From Effusibacillus dendaii (GTDB lineage Bacteria > Bacillota > Bacilli > Tumebacillales > Effusibacillaceae): a DNA stretch of 64,000 nt. The stretch is taken from the NCBI RefSeq assembly GCF_015097055.1, contig NZ_AP023366.1:1278501-1342500 (forward strand), given 5' to 3'. The position numbers and the translations under genes are program-made. The notes below the pieces were generated by a model. It was not told the DNA's origin and did no database searches. It worked only from the letters and a program-made list of their open reading frames with translations. Positions 17,144 through 64,000 of the stretch are shown here, in pieces; positions within the stretch are counted from its first letter, which is position 1; every line of letters starts with the position of its first letter.

Positions 17144-18196
17144 TTACTTGACGACAATTTTGTTCGGGTGGTCAGCCACCACACGTCCGATTACGGCCGC
17201 CGTTTCCACACCGTTCTTTTTCAGTGCTTCCACAAGCGATTCTGCTTCCGCTTCCGGAACTGACAACAACAGTCCGCCGGAAGTCACGGCATCGCAAAGA
17301 ACTTTGCGGGTGACTTCGTCAATCGACTCATCATACTGCACATCGTCCGCCAACCATTCATAATTGCGCAGCGAACCGCCAGGGATGATGCCTTGTTTCG
17401 CCAATTCATAAGCGTCCGGCAGCATGGGGACTGAGTTTTTGTCAATTTCAACACCGACACATGCGCCGCGCGCCATTTCCGCCGCATGCCCCAACAGGCC
17501 AAAACCGGTGATGTCCGTGCATGCATGCACGGTATAATGGTGTGCGGTTTCAGCTGCCGCTTTGTTCAAAGTGGCCATCACCGTTTCCACCTGCCGGATC
17601 GCTTCCGGGGTGGCCTTTGCCCGTTTAATGGCGGTTGTCACAATGCCCACGCCTATCGGTTTGGTGAGGACCAACCGGTCACCTGCACGAGCGCCTGCAT
17701 TCGTCCAGACTTTGTCCGGATGCACAATGCCGGTCACCGCCATCCCGAATTTCGGGTCAGAATCATCAATCGAATGACCTCCCGCAATGACAGCTCCCGC
17801 CTCACGCACTTTATCCGCTCCGCCGCGCAAAATTTCGGCCAGAATTTTCTTGTCCAGCTTGCTGACCGGAAATCCGACAATATTTAAAACGGTCAGCGGT
17901 TTGCCTCCCATTGCGTATACGTCAGATAACGCGTTTGCTGCCGCAATTGCGCCGAACATATAGGGATCATCCACGATCGGCGTAAAATAATCGACCGTCT
18001 GCACGATCGCCGTATCGTCCGATAGTTTGTAAACACCTGCATCATCAGACGTATCAAGCCCGACAATCAGGTTGGCATCAGGCAAATTTTTGGGTAAGTA
18101 GCTCAATACTTGAGCCAAATCGGCCGGGCCGATTTTACAGCCTCAGCCTGCTTTTTCTGATAAAAGCGTCAGCCGTACGGCCTCAGCGGGCGTCAC
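17144..18196 (-). CDS. selD: Selenophosphate synthase SelD, itself a selenoprotein (in-frame UGA)
   Basis: SelD makes selenophosphate from selenide and ATP, the selenium donor for selenocysteine synthesis. The gene reads 350 residues from GTG 18196 if the TGA at 18143-18145 is decoded as Sec18. The local sequence is SEKA-G-U-G-CKIGPADL, the invariant SelD catalytic loop (A-G-C/U-G-C-K) with U at the reactive position and Lys21 after it. Downstream are the ATP-binding motifs LDTSDDAGVY, VDYFTPIVDDPYMFG and AIAAANALSDVYAMGG. A search for ordinary starts would truncate the gene to a TTG after the catalytic loop, which would lack activity. It begins 4 bases after the selA stop and is its operon partner; a terminator follows. 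GTG 18196 as start is a choice by family length; the frame stays open further upstream. Confidence 0.93.
18117..18135 (-). promoter_or_regulatory. SECIS-like hairpin of selD
   Basis: Seven bases after the UGA, AAATCGG pairs perfectly with CCGATTT around the loop CCCGG. Bacterial SECIS elements are short stem-loops just downstream of the UGA with a guanine in the apical loop; this one fits in position and form. It is coding sequence at the same time. Confidence 0.7.
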
Positions 18197-18200
18197 CGCA

Positions 18201-19613
18201 TCAGCCGAGCCGCTGATAGGCGTCACGGATGCTGCTGACGCATTCGTCAATTTCGGTTGGGAATAATGTTCGGACATCGAGTAATAAAGCCTCCTTTCGA
18301 ATTGTTGCCATGACTGGCAAATCTACTTGACGCATAGCGCTTTCAAGCGCATTCAGACTGAACTGGGAAGACCGTATGGCAACCGCGTAAGTCGGAAGAT
18401 CTTCTGTCGGCAGACTGCCTCCGCCGACCTGTGACACTGTTTCTGTCACTTCCACAACCGCCTGTCCAGCAAATACATTTACAAGCTGTTCAGCCAGGCG
18501 ATGCGCCTCGTGAACCAACTCTTCCTTCCGTCTTGTCAGCAAATAAAGAGTCGGAATCTCCCGGATCGCCCGCTGTTCATCGAGGTAGAGCAGCAACGTG
18601 GCCTCCAGCGCCGCCAACGTCAATTTGTCTACACGTAAAGCCCTCGTCAGTTGATTCCGTTTAATCCGATTGATAAACGTTTGCTTTCCTGCGATAATGC
18701 CTGCCTGTGTCCCGCCCAGCAGCTTGTCGCCGGAGAAGGACACAATGTCCACCCCCGCCGCCAGGGAAGCGCCGACAGTCGGTTCATCGCCGATGCCATA
18801 TTTGCGTAAATCAATTAACGAGCCGGAGCCCAAGTCCTCATAGACAGGAATCCTGTGGTCATGTGACAGTGTAACCAAATCGGCCAAATCCGGTTGATAC
18901 GTAAATCCGACGATTCGAAAATTGCTGGTGTGCGCCCTCATGATCAGGGCCGTGTTTTCGCCGATTGCCTGGATGTAATCCCGTTCATGCGTCTTGTTTG
19001 TGGTTCCTACTTCCACCAGAACCGCGCCCGACTCCTTCATGACTTCCGAAACCCGGAACGAACCGCCAATCTCCACAAGCTGCCCGCGTGATACGATTAC
19101 CTCCCGCCCTTTTGCCATCTCCCGCAGCACAAGCAAAACGGCTGCCGCGTTGTTGTTCACCACCAAAGCGGCCTCCGCTCCCGTTAACCGGCAGATCAAC
19201 TGCTCTACATGGTCATAACGGGACCCTCGCTCACCTGTTTCCAAATTCAGCTCCAGATTGGAATAGCCTCTCGCCGTACGCTCGATCGCCTCCAGGGCCG
19301 GGGCAGCCAAGGGAGCTCTGCCGAGATTGGTGTGAAGCACAACGCCTGTCGCATTCAACACGCGGCGGAAGTTCGGACGAAACCGGCCCTGCATATAACG
19401 GATCGTTTCCTCTAAAAGCTCTGCCTCCGCCACTTCCGTCACTCGTTGACCGGACAGAATCTGTTGTCTGGCGGCGTCCACAATGGCGGCAATTGCTTCC
19501 GATACGAGGTCATGCGAATAATGTACGGACAACTGCCGGGCTATCGGATGTTCAAGCAACCGATGTACTGCCGGAAGTTTACGCAGTAAAGCGGAATTCG
19601 GTTTGGCTGACAT
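18201..19613 (-). CDS. selA: L-seryl-tRNA(Sec) selenium transferase SelA
   Basis: SelA is the PLP enzyme that converts seryl-tRNA(Sec) to selenocysteinyl-tRNA(Sec) with selenophosphate. The protein has 470 residues, the bacterial SelA length. The N-terminal tRNA-binding region (LLRKLPAVHRLLEHP) is followed by VLNATGVVLHTNLGRAPLA, EAALVVNNNAAAVLL, and the PLP-lysine motif SFSGDKLLGGTQAGIIAGK (near residue 290). ATG 19613 follows GAGGTG. selD comes 4 bases after the stop. This operon, together with four UGA-containing genes nearby, shows that the organism makes selenoproteins. selB and selC must lie outside the window. Confidence 0.96.
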   Translation of the reverse strand: MSAKPNSALLRKLPAVHRLLEHPIARQLSVHYSHDLVSEAIAAIVDAARQQILSGQRVTEVAEAELLEETIRYMQGRFRPNFRRVLNATGVVLHTNLGRAPLAAPALEAIERTARGYSNLELNLETGERGSRYDHVEQLICRLTGAEAALVVNNNAAAVLLVLREMAKGREVIVSRGQLVEIGGSFRVSEVMKESGAVLVEVGTTNKTHERDYIQAIGENTALIMRAHTSNFRIVGFTYQPDLADLVTLSHDHRIPVYEDLGSGSLIDLRKYGIGDEPTVGASLAAGVDIVSFSGDKLLGGTQAGIIAGKQTFINRIKRNQLTRALRVDKLTLAALEATLLLYLDEQRAIREIPTLYLLTRRKEELVHEAHRLAEQLVNVFAGQAVVEVTETVSQVGGGSLPTEDLPTYAVAIRSSQFSLNALESAMRQVDLPVMATIRKEALLLDVRTLFPTEIDECVSSIRDAYQRLG

Positions 19614-61938: not shown

Positions 61939-63216
61939 TTAGGAAGCTTTCACCTGAGGCTCGCTGCGGCCTGAGAGCAGACGATTTTGCTCAATCATCT
62001 TGCTTTCGTCAAACTCTTTTTCCATTTTGGATACTACCACAGTTGCCACACCGTTACCGACCAGGTTTACCAATGCGCGCGCTTCCGACATGAACCGATC
62101 AACGCCTAACAAGAGCGCCAGGCCTTCCACCGGTACCACATGCGTAGCGGCAAGCGTGGCGGCCAGTGTTACAAATCCGCCTCCCGTTACAGCAGCGGCG
62201 CCTTTTGAAGTGAGCATAAGAATGGCAATAACCGTCAACATTTGTCCAATACTGAGATGGACGTTATACACTTGCGCAATAAAGACCACGGCTGCCGACA
62301 AATAAATCGCGGTGCCGTCCAGATTAAACGAATATCCGGTTGGCAGCACCATTCCTACTACAGGCTTCGAACAGCCGTATTTTTCCATCTTATCCATCAT
62401 GCGAGGCAATACCGATTCCGATGAGGAAGTCCCCAGAACGATCAACAGTTCATCCTTGATGTAGCGGATAAATTTAAAAATGCTGAAACCATACAGTTTC
62501 GCGATCGATCCGAGCACGACCACAACGAACAGAATCATCGTGGCATATACGCAAATCATCAATTTGCCCAATGGGATTAAGGACGCGATGCCAAACTTCC
62601 CGATCGTGAAGGAAATCGCCGCAAAAGCGCCAATCGGAGAAACCTTCATCACATAACCGACCACTTTAAACAACACATCGGAAATTTTTTCGAAAACGAT
62701 GAGCAGCGGTTTCCCTTTTTCCCCGAGCGCCGATAAGCCCGCGCCAAAAAAGACAGAGAAAAACAGAATTTGCAGCAGATCCCCTTTTGCAAACGCATCT
62801 ACCACATTGTTTGGCACTACATGCAGGAAAAATTGCAGCCAATCGGTTTGCGCCGCCGCTTTCGTGTAGGTGTCGATATTCCCTTTCGCCAGCGATGCCA
62901 GATTCAGACCGGCCCCCGGTTTCAGAATGTGAACTACGAATAGCCCGATGGCCAACGCGATCGTCGATACAATCTCAAAATAGAGGATCGCTTTGCCGCC
63001 TACTCGGCCTACCTTTTTCATGTCCCCCATATTGGCAATCCCGACAACAATCGTAACAAACACAATCGGACCGATCACCATTTTGATCATATTAATAAAC
63101 GTGTCGCCGATCGGTTGCATCTGAGTGCCGACTTTCGGCCAGAGAAATCCGACTGCAATACCCAGCACCAAACCGATCAATACTTGAACGGTAAGGGACA
63201 GGCGCTTTTTCTTCAT
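61939..63216 (-). CDS. dctA: C4-dicarboxylate:cation symporter, DAACS family
   Basis: A 425-residue dicarboxylate/amino acid:cation symporter of the glutamate transporter fold. Motifs include MIKMVIGPIVFVTIVVGIANMGD, GTSSSESVLPRMMDKMEKYG (the TSSSS serine-rich hairpin 1), GYSFNLDGTAIYLSAAVVFIAQ and TSKGAAAVTGGGFVTLAATLAAT (hairpin 2). It imports succinate, fumarate or malate with sodium or protons. ATG 63216 follows GGGG. In B. subtilis the homologue (DctP/YdbH) is the target of DctS-DctR; here it lies convergent with them. Very likely the regulated gene. Confidence 0.95.
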   Translation of the reverse strand: MKKKRLSLTVQVLIGLVLGIAVGFLWPKVGTQMQPIGDTFINMIKMVIGPIVFVTIVVGIANMGDMKKVGRVGGKAILYFEIVSTIALAIGLFVVHILKPGAGLNLASLAKGNIDTYTKAAAQTDWLQFFLHVVPNNVVDAFAKGDLLQILFFSVFFGAGLSALGEKGKPLLIVFEKISDVLFKVVGYVMKVSPIGAFAAISFTIGKFGIASLIPLGKLMICVYATMILFVVVVLGSIAKLYGFSIFKFIRYIKDELLIVLGTSSSESVLPRMMDKMEKYGCSKPVVGMVLPTGYSFNLDGTAIYLSAAVVFIAQVYNVHLSIGQMLTVIAILMLTSKGAAAVTGGGFVTLAATLAATHVVPVEGLALLLGVDRFMSEARALVNLVGNGVATVVVSKMEKEFDESKMIEQNRLLSGRSEPQVKAS

Positions 63217-63400: not shown

Positions 63401-64000
63401 TCAGTAAGTTGAAAATCGGATCGTGTGGATCTGCCCCGGCTCCTGCTTGTTTTCCAACTGTGCCAAGGCAGCCTTCACAACAGCCGTTTGCGTTTCTTTG
63501 TCGAACGGTTTGCCAAGCGAATGGCCAAATTCAAAGCCTTCCGGATGGATCGCACGCGGCGGCCGCATCAGTCCTGACTGTTCCGTATCAAGCGTAACCA
63601 GTACGGTTGGAATGCCCTGCGATTCAATAGCCCGTTGTACCGTGACCACGGTACGGTGGCAGAGCGGTCAACCAGCGGTCAGAATAACAGCGTCCGCTTT
63701 CGAACGGGTCACTTCTTTCGCAATCGCCGGAGCCGTCTCCGTGTTTATCTGGTTAAGCCGCATCGAATAGCCCATCATGGAAATATGTTTTTCCGCGACT
63801 CCCTGGATAAATCCTTCCGCCGCCAACTCACGCAAGCGATCGATCGGAAAGATGCAGTTGATGTCTTTTTTGGGTTCGTCCGTGTTGTAGTGCTCTTTCG
63901 GAGCCCCGTGTGTGACGGTAAAATCTTCCGCTTTCACGTCGCCCGGAATCACACGGTAGGAGATGTCTCCCTCCGTGTTAAAAGGCTCCTGATCTTTCAG
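63401..64000 (-). CDS. GrdB/PrdB-like glycine/betaine/sarcosine/proline reductase-family selenoprotein (partial, UGA recoded)
   Basis: The last 199 residues of a gene that enters from beyond the right edge. A TGA at 63668-63670 lies in the middle of ADAVILTAG-U-PLC-HRTVVTVQRAIES, in the place where the family has a UxxC/CxxC redox site. Both halves share one frame. Upstream are RVIPGDVKAEDFTVTHGAPK, FPIDRLRELAAEGFIQGVA and QINTETAPAIAKEV; downstream EIPTVLVTLDTEQ-like GIPTVLVTLDTEQSGLMRPP and HSLGKPFDKETQ, a recurrent pattern in GrdB-type proteins. True glycine reductase needs GrdA/GrdC partners that are not visible, so this may be one of the stand-alone paralogues of unknown substrate. The terminator at 63359 ends the unit. 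Confidence 0.85.
63637..63654 (-). promoter_or_regulatory. SECIS-like hairpin of the GrdB-like gene
   Basis: Thirteen bases after the UGA, GTACCGT pairs perfectly with ACGGTAC around the loop GGTC. The loop guanines are about 21 bases after the UGA. The form and spacing fit bacterial SECIS elements. Confidence 0.75.

Follow-up and report, generated by a model that had tools for sequence, protein, structure and literature searches.

The prdB-like gene at the right-hand end of the window, the whole stretch of 64,000 nucleotides analyzed here (G000:C1:1278501-1342500, from the single 3.45-Mb contig of the source genome, G000, Effusibacillus dendaii), is predicted to encode a PrdB-derived selenoprotein whose neighbour, here and in related bacteria, is a second selenoprotein, an AhpE-type peroxiredoxin designated Prx-U. 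We put the probability at about one-half that this protein has moved out of amino-acid reduction and serves in peroxide defence together with Prx-U, direct exchange between the two being the likeliest form of the partnership. The family itself is known; what appears to be new is the genomic partner of this PrdB-derived subfamily.

The gene, its selenocysteine codon and the SECIS hairpin

The tail of the window corresponds to L002:1-7500, and the gene, which lies only partly inside the window, was completed from the genome. The start codon, at position 64093 in window numbering (L002:7593), lies 93 bases outside the window; the product has 230 residues with one Sec, U142. The translation around the in-frame TGA reads ADAVILTAG-U-PLCHRTVVTVQRAIE, with the motif TAG-U-PLC-HRT; an earlier claim, that a TGA occupies the UxxC site with both halves of the protein in one frame, is thus borne out on the minus strand. 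The terminator expected at the end of the gene is present as well. Coordinates are collected in Table 1.

Table 1. Features of the prdB-like locus and the Sec genes of the window, in window numbering unless L002 is given.
Feature	Position	Strand	Basis and remarks
prdB-like selenoprotein gene, part inside window	63401..64000	-	stop TGA 63403-63401
In-frame TGA as selenocysteine, first residue of UPLC (UxxC) motif	63668-63670	-	motif, homologue alignment
Bacterial SECIS apical hairpin	63654-63637	-	GTACCGT-GGTC-ACGGTAC, 7 bp, starts 13 nt after TGA
Intrinsic terminator 3' of prdB-like gene	63385-63364 (L002:6885-6864)	-	8-bp stem, then T run
AhpE-type seleno-peroxiredoxin (Prx-U) gene, beyond window	L002:8287-7787	same strand, upstream of prdB-like	in-frame TGA, TPVUGAQ
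dctA, C4-dicarboxylate transporter	61939..63216	-	NF002461, 626 bits; downstream past terminator
selD (Sec-type)	17144..18277	-	own in-frame TGA, GUGCK motif
selA, L-seryl-tRNA(Sec) selenium transferase	18201..19613	-	TIGR00474, 610 bits

In an alignment of 38 homologues, the column of the TGA contains U in 36 and C in two, a PrdB from a prd operon (L021, CGTC) and a sister protein (L034, CPYS). Both align their Cys at the TGA position, which is therefore the redox site in the Cys homologues too. This alignment (A4) was made without L061 and L072 (the same genomes as L016 and L019), L066, L069 and L026, whose frame looks broken.

The hairpin after the TGA is exactly as given in the preliminary description, a perfect 7-bp stem with a GGTC loop. 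Comparable hairpins, defined by a perfect 7-bp stem, a loop of 3-6 and a start 8-19 nt downstream of the TGA, follow 12 of the 2141 TGA triplets in the window (0.6%, both strands, this one included). Among 20 clade sequences including our own (alignment A6; 19 distinct rows), 98.5% of cells in the stem remain paired, and in the distinct rows two pairs are changed on both sides, giving 12 double-change cells; the alignment was made without L065, L069, L115-L122, the six Acidobacteriota and the repeats L061 and L072, and a smaller one of 10 sequences was also prepared. Shuffling 500 times never yielded as many paired cells, as many double-change cells or as strong a covariation. Doubly changed pairs were at least as numerous in 461 of the 500 shuffles and further pair types in all 500, so neither of these two counts stands above the shuffles. 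Because single-sequence folds of the region are unexceptional in energy (z -1.06 for our own), the case for the SECIS rests on covariation; in L018, another structure has the best energy. The RNAalifold consensus for the SECIS of Prx-U is weak (10 pairs, covariation term -0.08), and Rfam at the gathering threshold gave no match in the window.

The genome contains a full Sec set. The selA and selD genes adjoin each other inside the window, selB was found elsewhere in the genome, outside the window, and tRNA-Sec with anticodon TCA lies 10.8 kb to the right of the window. Outside the window, at G000:C1:3410608-3411048, the genome encodes another peroxiredoxin whose active site contains an in-frame TGA (L101; TPGUITE) and which has a relative in G007 (L102). 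Thus, four or more selenoproteins appear to be encoded in this genome: SelD, Prx-U, the PrdB-like protein and the L101 peroxiredoxin.

We take the TGA to be read as Sec because its flanks are conserved on both sides across the 38 homologues, the SECIS stem covaries in relatives, the Sec machinery is in the same genome and Cys homologues exist at the same position. These same facts make it extremely unlikely that the TGA terminates translation and that the downstream frame is a remnant, with no full-length protein made, a reading favored by the relative from G041 (L026), in which the frame looks broken. The predicted selenoprotein, its kinship with GrdB and PrdB, and the lack of an assigned substrate were all put forward in the preliminary description, and these three points are upheld.

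Relationship to PrdB and GrdB

The PrdB family model TIGR04483 matches residues 10-226 with 186.1 bits, as compared with a cut-off of 300 and with 397.6 and 462.1 bits for two control PrdBs from prd operons of the same class (L020 and L021). PF07355 (GRDB) scores 32 bits (cut-off 22) over its last 85 positions only, profile 262-346 of 347, or 215-346 in the genome search. The glycine reductase model TIGR01917 gives 45.5 bits versus a cut-off of 602. There was no match to NF041046 (UGSC family) at E 0.001, and this model recognizes a prd-operon PrdB only weakly (25 bits versus a cut-off of 125). From these matches, the product is judged to be a whole PrdB-length protein, closest to PrdB over its full length. 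The kinship proposed earlier therefore stands, but the description of a C-terminal GrdB domain does not, since TIGR04483 is matched over the full length of the 230-residue protein; the search with PF07355 that had been suggested reaches the C-terminal part of the profile only, and TIGR04483 fits better. A PDB sequence search returned nothing credible.

PrdB, the 26-kDa selenoprotein subunit of D-proline reductase, resembles the PrdB-like protein in whole-length homology, in its UxxC(H) site and in size; an in-frame TGA is likewise seen in one of the two PrdBs from prd operons. The PrdB-like protein differs in having no PrdA or prd operon, in carrying UPLC rather than UGTC or CGTC, in its link to a seleno-peroxiredoxin and in scoring below the family cut-off. 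GrdB, selenoprotein B of glycine reductase (PF07355, TIGR01917/01918), is homologous in its C-terminal half around UxxC, but is about 430 residues long as compared with 230, and the source genome lacks a GrdE-type partner.

Each control PrdB is adjoined by a PF09338 protein, a family that comprises the pyruvoyl subunits GrdE and PrdA; further prd gene names around these controls are our reading of the neighbour listing. The preliminary description placed any partners to the right of the window, and a grd or prd operon there was rejected after extension past position 64000. No PF09338 protein was found in a search of the source genome, in a set of 15 genomes of which G001, G007, G017 and G133 gave positive controls and the other 11 had none. 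Among up to 32 distinct genomes that bear the clade described below (17 of them reached through loci, with completeness not stated, and several being MAGs), three contain PF09338 (G001, G171, which is G400, and G408), in each case as a full-length GrdE-like match with E < 1e-183. The weak, PrdA-like kind of match seen in the prd operons (6e-27 and 9.8e-25) never occurs in these up to 32 genomes.

The protein is named PrdB/GrdB by annotation, and TIGR04483 is indeed its best family, with the UxxC in the same place as in PrdB. A function as D-proline or glycine reductase subunit is nevertheless very unlikely, given a score of 186 bits against controls of 398 and 462, the PF09338 distribution and the position of the prd-operon PrdBs on a separate branch of the tree. 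Because PF09338 is absent or GrdE-like only, and the PrdB and glycine reductase scores are under their cut-offs, we conclude on comparative grounds that the PrdB-like protein is predicted to be no working reductase subunit of any recognized kind.

Other stand-alone subfamilies (L081-L084 and L123-L127) have the motifs UPVCN, UGICN, UPVCH, UGLCN, UPVCQ, UPICH, UGHCH and UGYCH, and their hosts are Chloroflexi, Nitrospirota, Deltaproteobacteria and Bacilli; the flanks covered for these loci gave no Prx match. A UYICHQ subfamily (L051:1319-8707 and L053:7940-16501) has a shared cluster with ABC-transporter-like genes and membrane proteins, to which a flavin oxidoreductase-like gene is added in L053, these roles being assigned by reading the translations.

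Association with the seleno-peroxiredoxin

A partner gene does lie to the right of the window, but it encodes Prx-U (166 residues) and is neither grd nor prd. The 193-nt gap between the two genes (L002:7594-7786) contains three consecutive stable hairpins (z -7.7). The last of these is terminator-like and is near the prdB-like start codon, and terminator-like hairpins thus separate both genes in the source genome; from the sequence, attenuation is possible. Farther to the right, on the Prx-U side, are genes for a MerR/ParB-like regulator and, by reading, a pseudouridine-synthase-like protein, both of which were considered and set aside.

Named genomes were scanned for relatives of the N-terminal half of the PrdB-like alignment, and 24 related loci were recovered. 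Prx-U is upstream on the same strand in 20 of these (14 Bacillota and six Acidobacteriota, two of the 20, L061 and L072, repeating genomes already counted), its match starting 466-915 nt before that of the PrdB-like protein; the four most distant loci have no Prx-U upstream. All 20 have U in the peroxiredoxin motif, which is TPVUGAQ in 14 and TPVUTAQ in the six Acidobacteriota. In L074, the Prx-U gene is cut by a contig end. The six acidobacterial PrdB-like proteins (L075-L080) all have UPNVC or UPSVC, a UxxxC arrangement whose spacing is unusual among Sec redox motifs. Intergenic gaps were given for 22 loci, one of which (L058, G041) is unusable because the PrdB-like start is unclear, and in the 21 readable loci they range from 16 to 456 nt. 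In ten loci, the two genes are only 16-38 nt apart, which suggests that they may form one operon, and several of these loci have an AAGGAGG stretch resembling a ribosome-binding site between the genes.

Among the loci compared, no neighbour other than Prx-U recurs beyond a few genomes. The C4-dicarboxylate genes that the preliminary description had named as neighbours proved to be positional only, a dctA relative being near the gene only in the source genome and G002.

The UPLC form of the PrdB-like protein is present in 16 of 398 genomes of the class, spanning 11 genera and 9 families; 15 are full length, and G041 has the apparently broken frame. The latter (G041:C96; L026/L058) lies beside an intact Prx-U gene, as a result of decay or sequencing error. 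Prx-U (E < 1e-50) occurs in 28 of the 398 genomes, including all 16 UPLC genomes versus 12 of the 382 others (Fisher p 2e-21, genomes counted without removing relatedness). When the comparison is confined to the 27 genomes with a PrdB-family match (E 1e-20), Prx-U accompanies 16 of 16 UPLC forms and two of 11 other forms (Fisher p 1.2e-5, again with relatedness retained). The two genes are linked in 11 of the 16 genomes and unlinked in five (G066, G080, G332, G341 and G377).

In a 50-row tree, drawn with a midpoint root and containing several long branches, a single clade of 32 rows (support 92/92) takes in every one of the 25 rows that adjoin Prx-U and seven unlinked rows; the prd-operon PrdBs and other subfamilies are outside it. 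The rows omitted from A4 were left out of this tree, as were L116 (the same genome as L064), the full-length GrdBs L027, L032 and L033, and second copies lacking a locus (G152:C2, G321:C21 and G329:C11). None of 17 other-subfamily loci matches Prx-U or Tpx at E 1e-4 in flanks of mostly 1.5-10 kb, shorter at contig ends. The Cys-containing sister protein (L034; L049:7558-13002, G080), 47% identical, is on a long branch next to the 32-row clade, a placement that is weakly supported (95/48). Its gene is divergent to that of a Tpx thiol peroxidase, which is followed by catalase-peroxidase and SelO genes, a neighbourhood whose predicted functions point to peroxide defence.

The PerR box TTATAATNATTATAA is known from Bacillus, and this consensus was applied to upstream regions. 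A perfect PerR-like box is found 102 nt before one PrdB-like gene copy in G080. In G066, sites with 1 mismatch lie at 90 and 229 nt upstream of one PrdB-like copy and at 132 nt upstream of the unlinked Prx-U gene. Three sites (2, 2 and 3 mismatches) lie upstream of a glutaredoxin-PrxU-PrdB-like cluster in G032, and 2-mismatch sites are near -100 in G001 and an Ammoniphilus. The Fur box fits these sites worse in the regions compared. The source genome has no box within 3 mismatches upstream, its best site having 4, and neither G066 nor G080 has one before its second PrdB-like copy; the Prx-U gene of G080 has a 3-mismatch site at best. For 28 of the 35 regions examined upstream, more than 5 of 300 shuffles contained a site as good as the best one. 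In three genomes (L047, L048 and L046), a Fur/PerR-like gene is close to the PrdB-like gene or operon or divergent to it (at 4.4 kb in L046), and scores 117-125 bits with the PerR model, below its cut-off of 180; in a fourth (L119), a Fur-family gene, cut by the locus end, scores 93 bits with the Irr model and 88 with PerR. Divergent sites could serve the regulator itself. Predicted PerR-type regulation thus has patchy support, and in G066 it would link the unlinked pair.

These data bear on whether the pairing might reflect co-inheritance of Sec-dependent genes with no functional link, for example by joint transfer. Every linked pair in which the peroxiredoxin motif was read is a double selenoprotein, and the available portion of one study states that transfer of the Sec trait is accompanied by at least one selenoprotein gene (PMC1794560). 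Yet Prx-U follows the UPLC form specifically among genomes bearing the PrdB family, the unlinked Prx-U gene of G066 and one of its two PrdB-like genes both have PerR-like boxes, and the short gaps suggest a single operon. We consider mere co-inheritance unlikely.

Electron donors and a proposed role in peroxide defence

Mycobacterial AhpE is a Cys enzyme that is reduced by mycoredoxin. It is also the closest relative of Prx-U with a solved structure (Rv2238c/MT2298; PDB 4x1u and 1xvw), from which Prx-U differs in having Sec at the peroxidatic position, and no mycoredoxin-type gene linked to Prx-U was seen in the source genome. In seven of 21 Prx-U sequences, Sec is the only Cys or Sec residue, and no second Cys is conserved (the table was compiled without the sequence from the source genome, which has a Cys in PLCSDF). 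Therefore, Prx-U needs an outside reductant. The PrdB-like protein is probably a redox partner of this one-Sec peroxiredoxin.

U142 and C145 are the only invariant or near-invariant chalcogen residues of the PrdB-like protein. An AlphaFold2 model (pLDDT 94, pTM 0.92) has an alpha/beta fold in which U142 is located between strand 135-139 and helix 143-157, where the strand meets the helix N terminus. In thioredoxins, a helix N terminus lowers the thiol pKa. Because Prx-U lacks a second Cys, U142 and C145 are conserved and the site is at a helix N terminus, we propose that these two residues reduce the selenenic acid of Prx-U. Prx-U would reduce a (hydro)peroxide to the alcohol or water and be converted to Prx-SeOH; the selenolate of U142 would attack this to give a mixed diselenide, which C145 would resolve to leave a U-C selenenylsulfide in the PrdB-like protein; and cellular thioredoxin or glutaredoxin would then re-reduce the protein. 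Of this mechanism, we are least sure of the direct-reduction steps.

Foldseek against the PDB gave no match for the model at E 0.001 or better (best E 3.3e-3). The best hit in a VIA structure comparison is an unrelated enzyme, microcystinase C (Z 9.3), followed at 8.0-8.5 by LacI-type cores and RbsB, so that the fold comparison yielded no clear relative; no thioredoxin-fold protein is among the structural matches listed. In its most specific form, our proposal is that a PrdB-derived and apparently non-thioredoxin-fold selenoprotein acts as a dedicated Prx-U reductase through a U/C-to-U selenol relay, so that two selenoproteins would make up a peroxidase system found in Bacillota and Acidobacteriota, the latter having the UxxxC variant. 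We advance this form tentatively, at clearly less than even odds. Several observations speak against a role in peroxide defence by direct reduction of Prx-U: five of the 16 pairs are unlinked, our own two genes are split by terminator-like hairpins, the source genome has no PerR-like box within 3 mismatches upstream, the structural matches listed include no thioredoxin fold, and polar residues (D43, R47, H62, D77 and R154) are common to the PrdB-like protein and true PrdB. By comparison with PrdB, these residues could form a small-molecule pocket.

Alternatively, the PrdB-like protein may take part in the peroxide response as an independent selenol-dependent enzyme, whose substrate, a small electrophile or an oxidation product, would be reduced or dealkylated in such a PrdB-type pocket. 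Prx-U would then be fed by glutaredoxin-thioredoxin reductase (Grx-TrxR), and the two genes would share regulation but not electrons. This is a serious possibility, although we do not regard it as the probable one. It draws on the shared polar residues and on the distribution of Grx-TrxR fusions, which have an AhpF-like architecture, adjoin the same Prx-U in order-mates and are candidates for the same electron-donor role, but belong to another family with another sequence, a CxxC and their own flavoprotein domain. Among the 12 of 28 Prx-U genomes without the UPLC form, Prx-U adjoins such a fusion in six (seven copies; L132-L134, L136, L137, L139 and L146) and a lone glutaredoxin in a seventh (G005; L135), and in the other five (G030, G031, G046, G050 and G244) neither gene is beside it in the flanks covered. 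Another reductant may thus suffice for Prx-U.

Twelve of the 16 UPLC genomes, our own among them (its copy is 62% identical), also encode the fusion, at a site that does not adjoin Prx-U, and glutaredoxin, Prx-U and PrdB-like genes stand in a row in G179 and G032. Simple displacement of Grx-TrxR by the PrdB-like protein was rejected on the ground of this retention. The usual source of electrons for Prx-U may therefore be the fusion, and the PrdB-like protein may have another task in the same stress. The word GrdB-like appears once in the available text of a paper on monofluoroacetate dehalorespiration (PMC10838667). What weighs against a separate enzyme is that among the loci compared only Prx-U recurs, with no gene for a small-molecule enzyme or transporter found beyond a few genomes.

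The reading that we prefer, a role in peroxide defence with Prx-U, concerns a branch of a family that has been filed under another function. According to the portions available of the papers concerned, UxxC "PrdB" selenoproteins are known and abundant (PMC1088965, PMC2398784, PMC5029168, PMC9312934, PMC13188914). Surveys of the Sargasso Sea and GOS data describe UxxC members that are abundant in the open ocean and file them as proline reductase PrdB (PMC1088965, PMC2398784); PrdB-type proteins are likewise counted among the most widespread bacterial selenoproteins and filed as proline reductase (PMC9312934, PMC5029168). The selenoprotein operons listed in the text seen of another study include grdA-grdB, prdB-prdC, Prx with a SelW-like gene and a Prx-like with an AhpD-like gene, and not Prx with PrdB (PMC13188914). 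No report of a PrdB-peroxiredoxin pair was found in the open-licence PMC literature, which does not imply its absence from print. A branch that has no recognized PrdA-like partner and travels with a seleno-peroxiredoxin would correct the proline-reductase annotation and offers a testable function for stand-alone PrdB-like proteins. It is also a possible case, in Bacillota and Acidobacteriota, of electron transfer between two selenoproteins.
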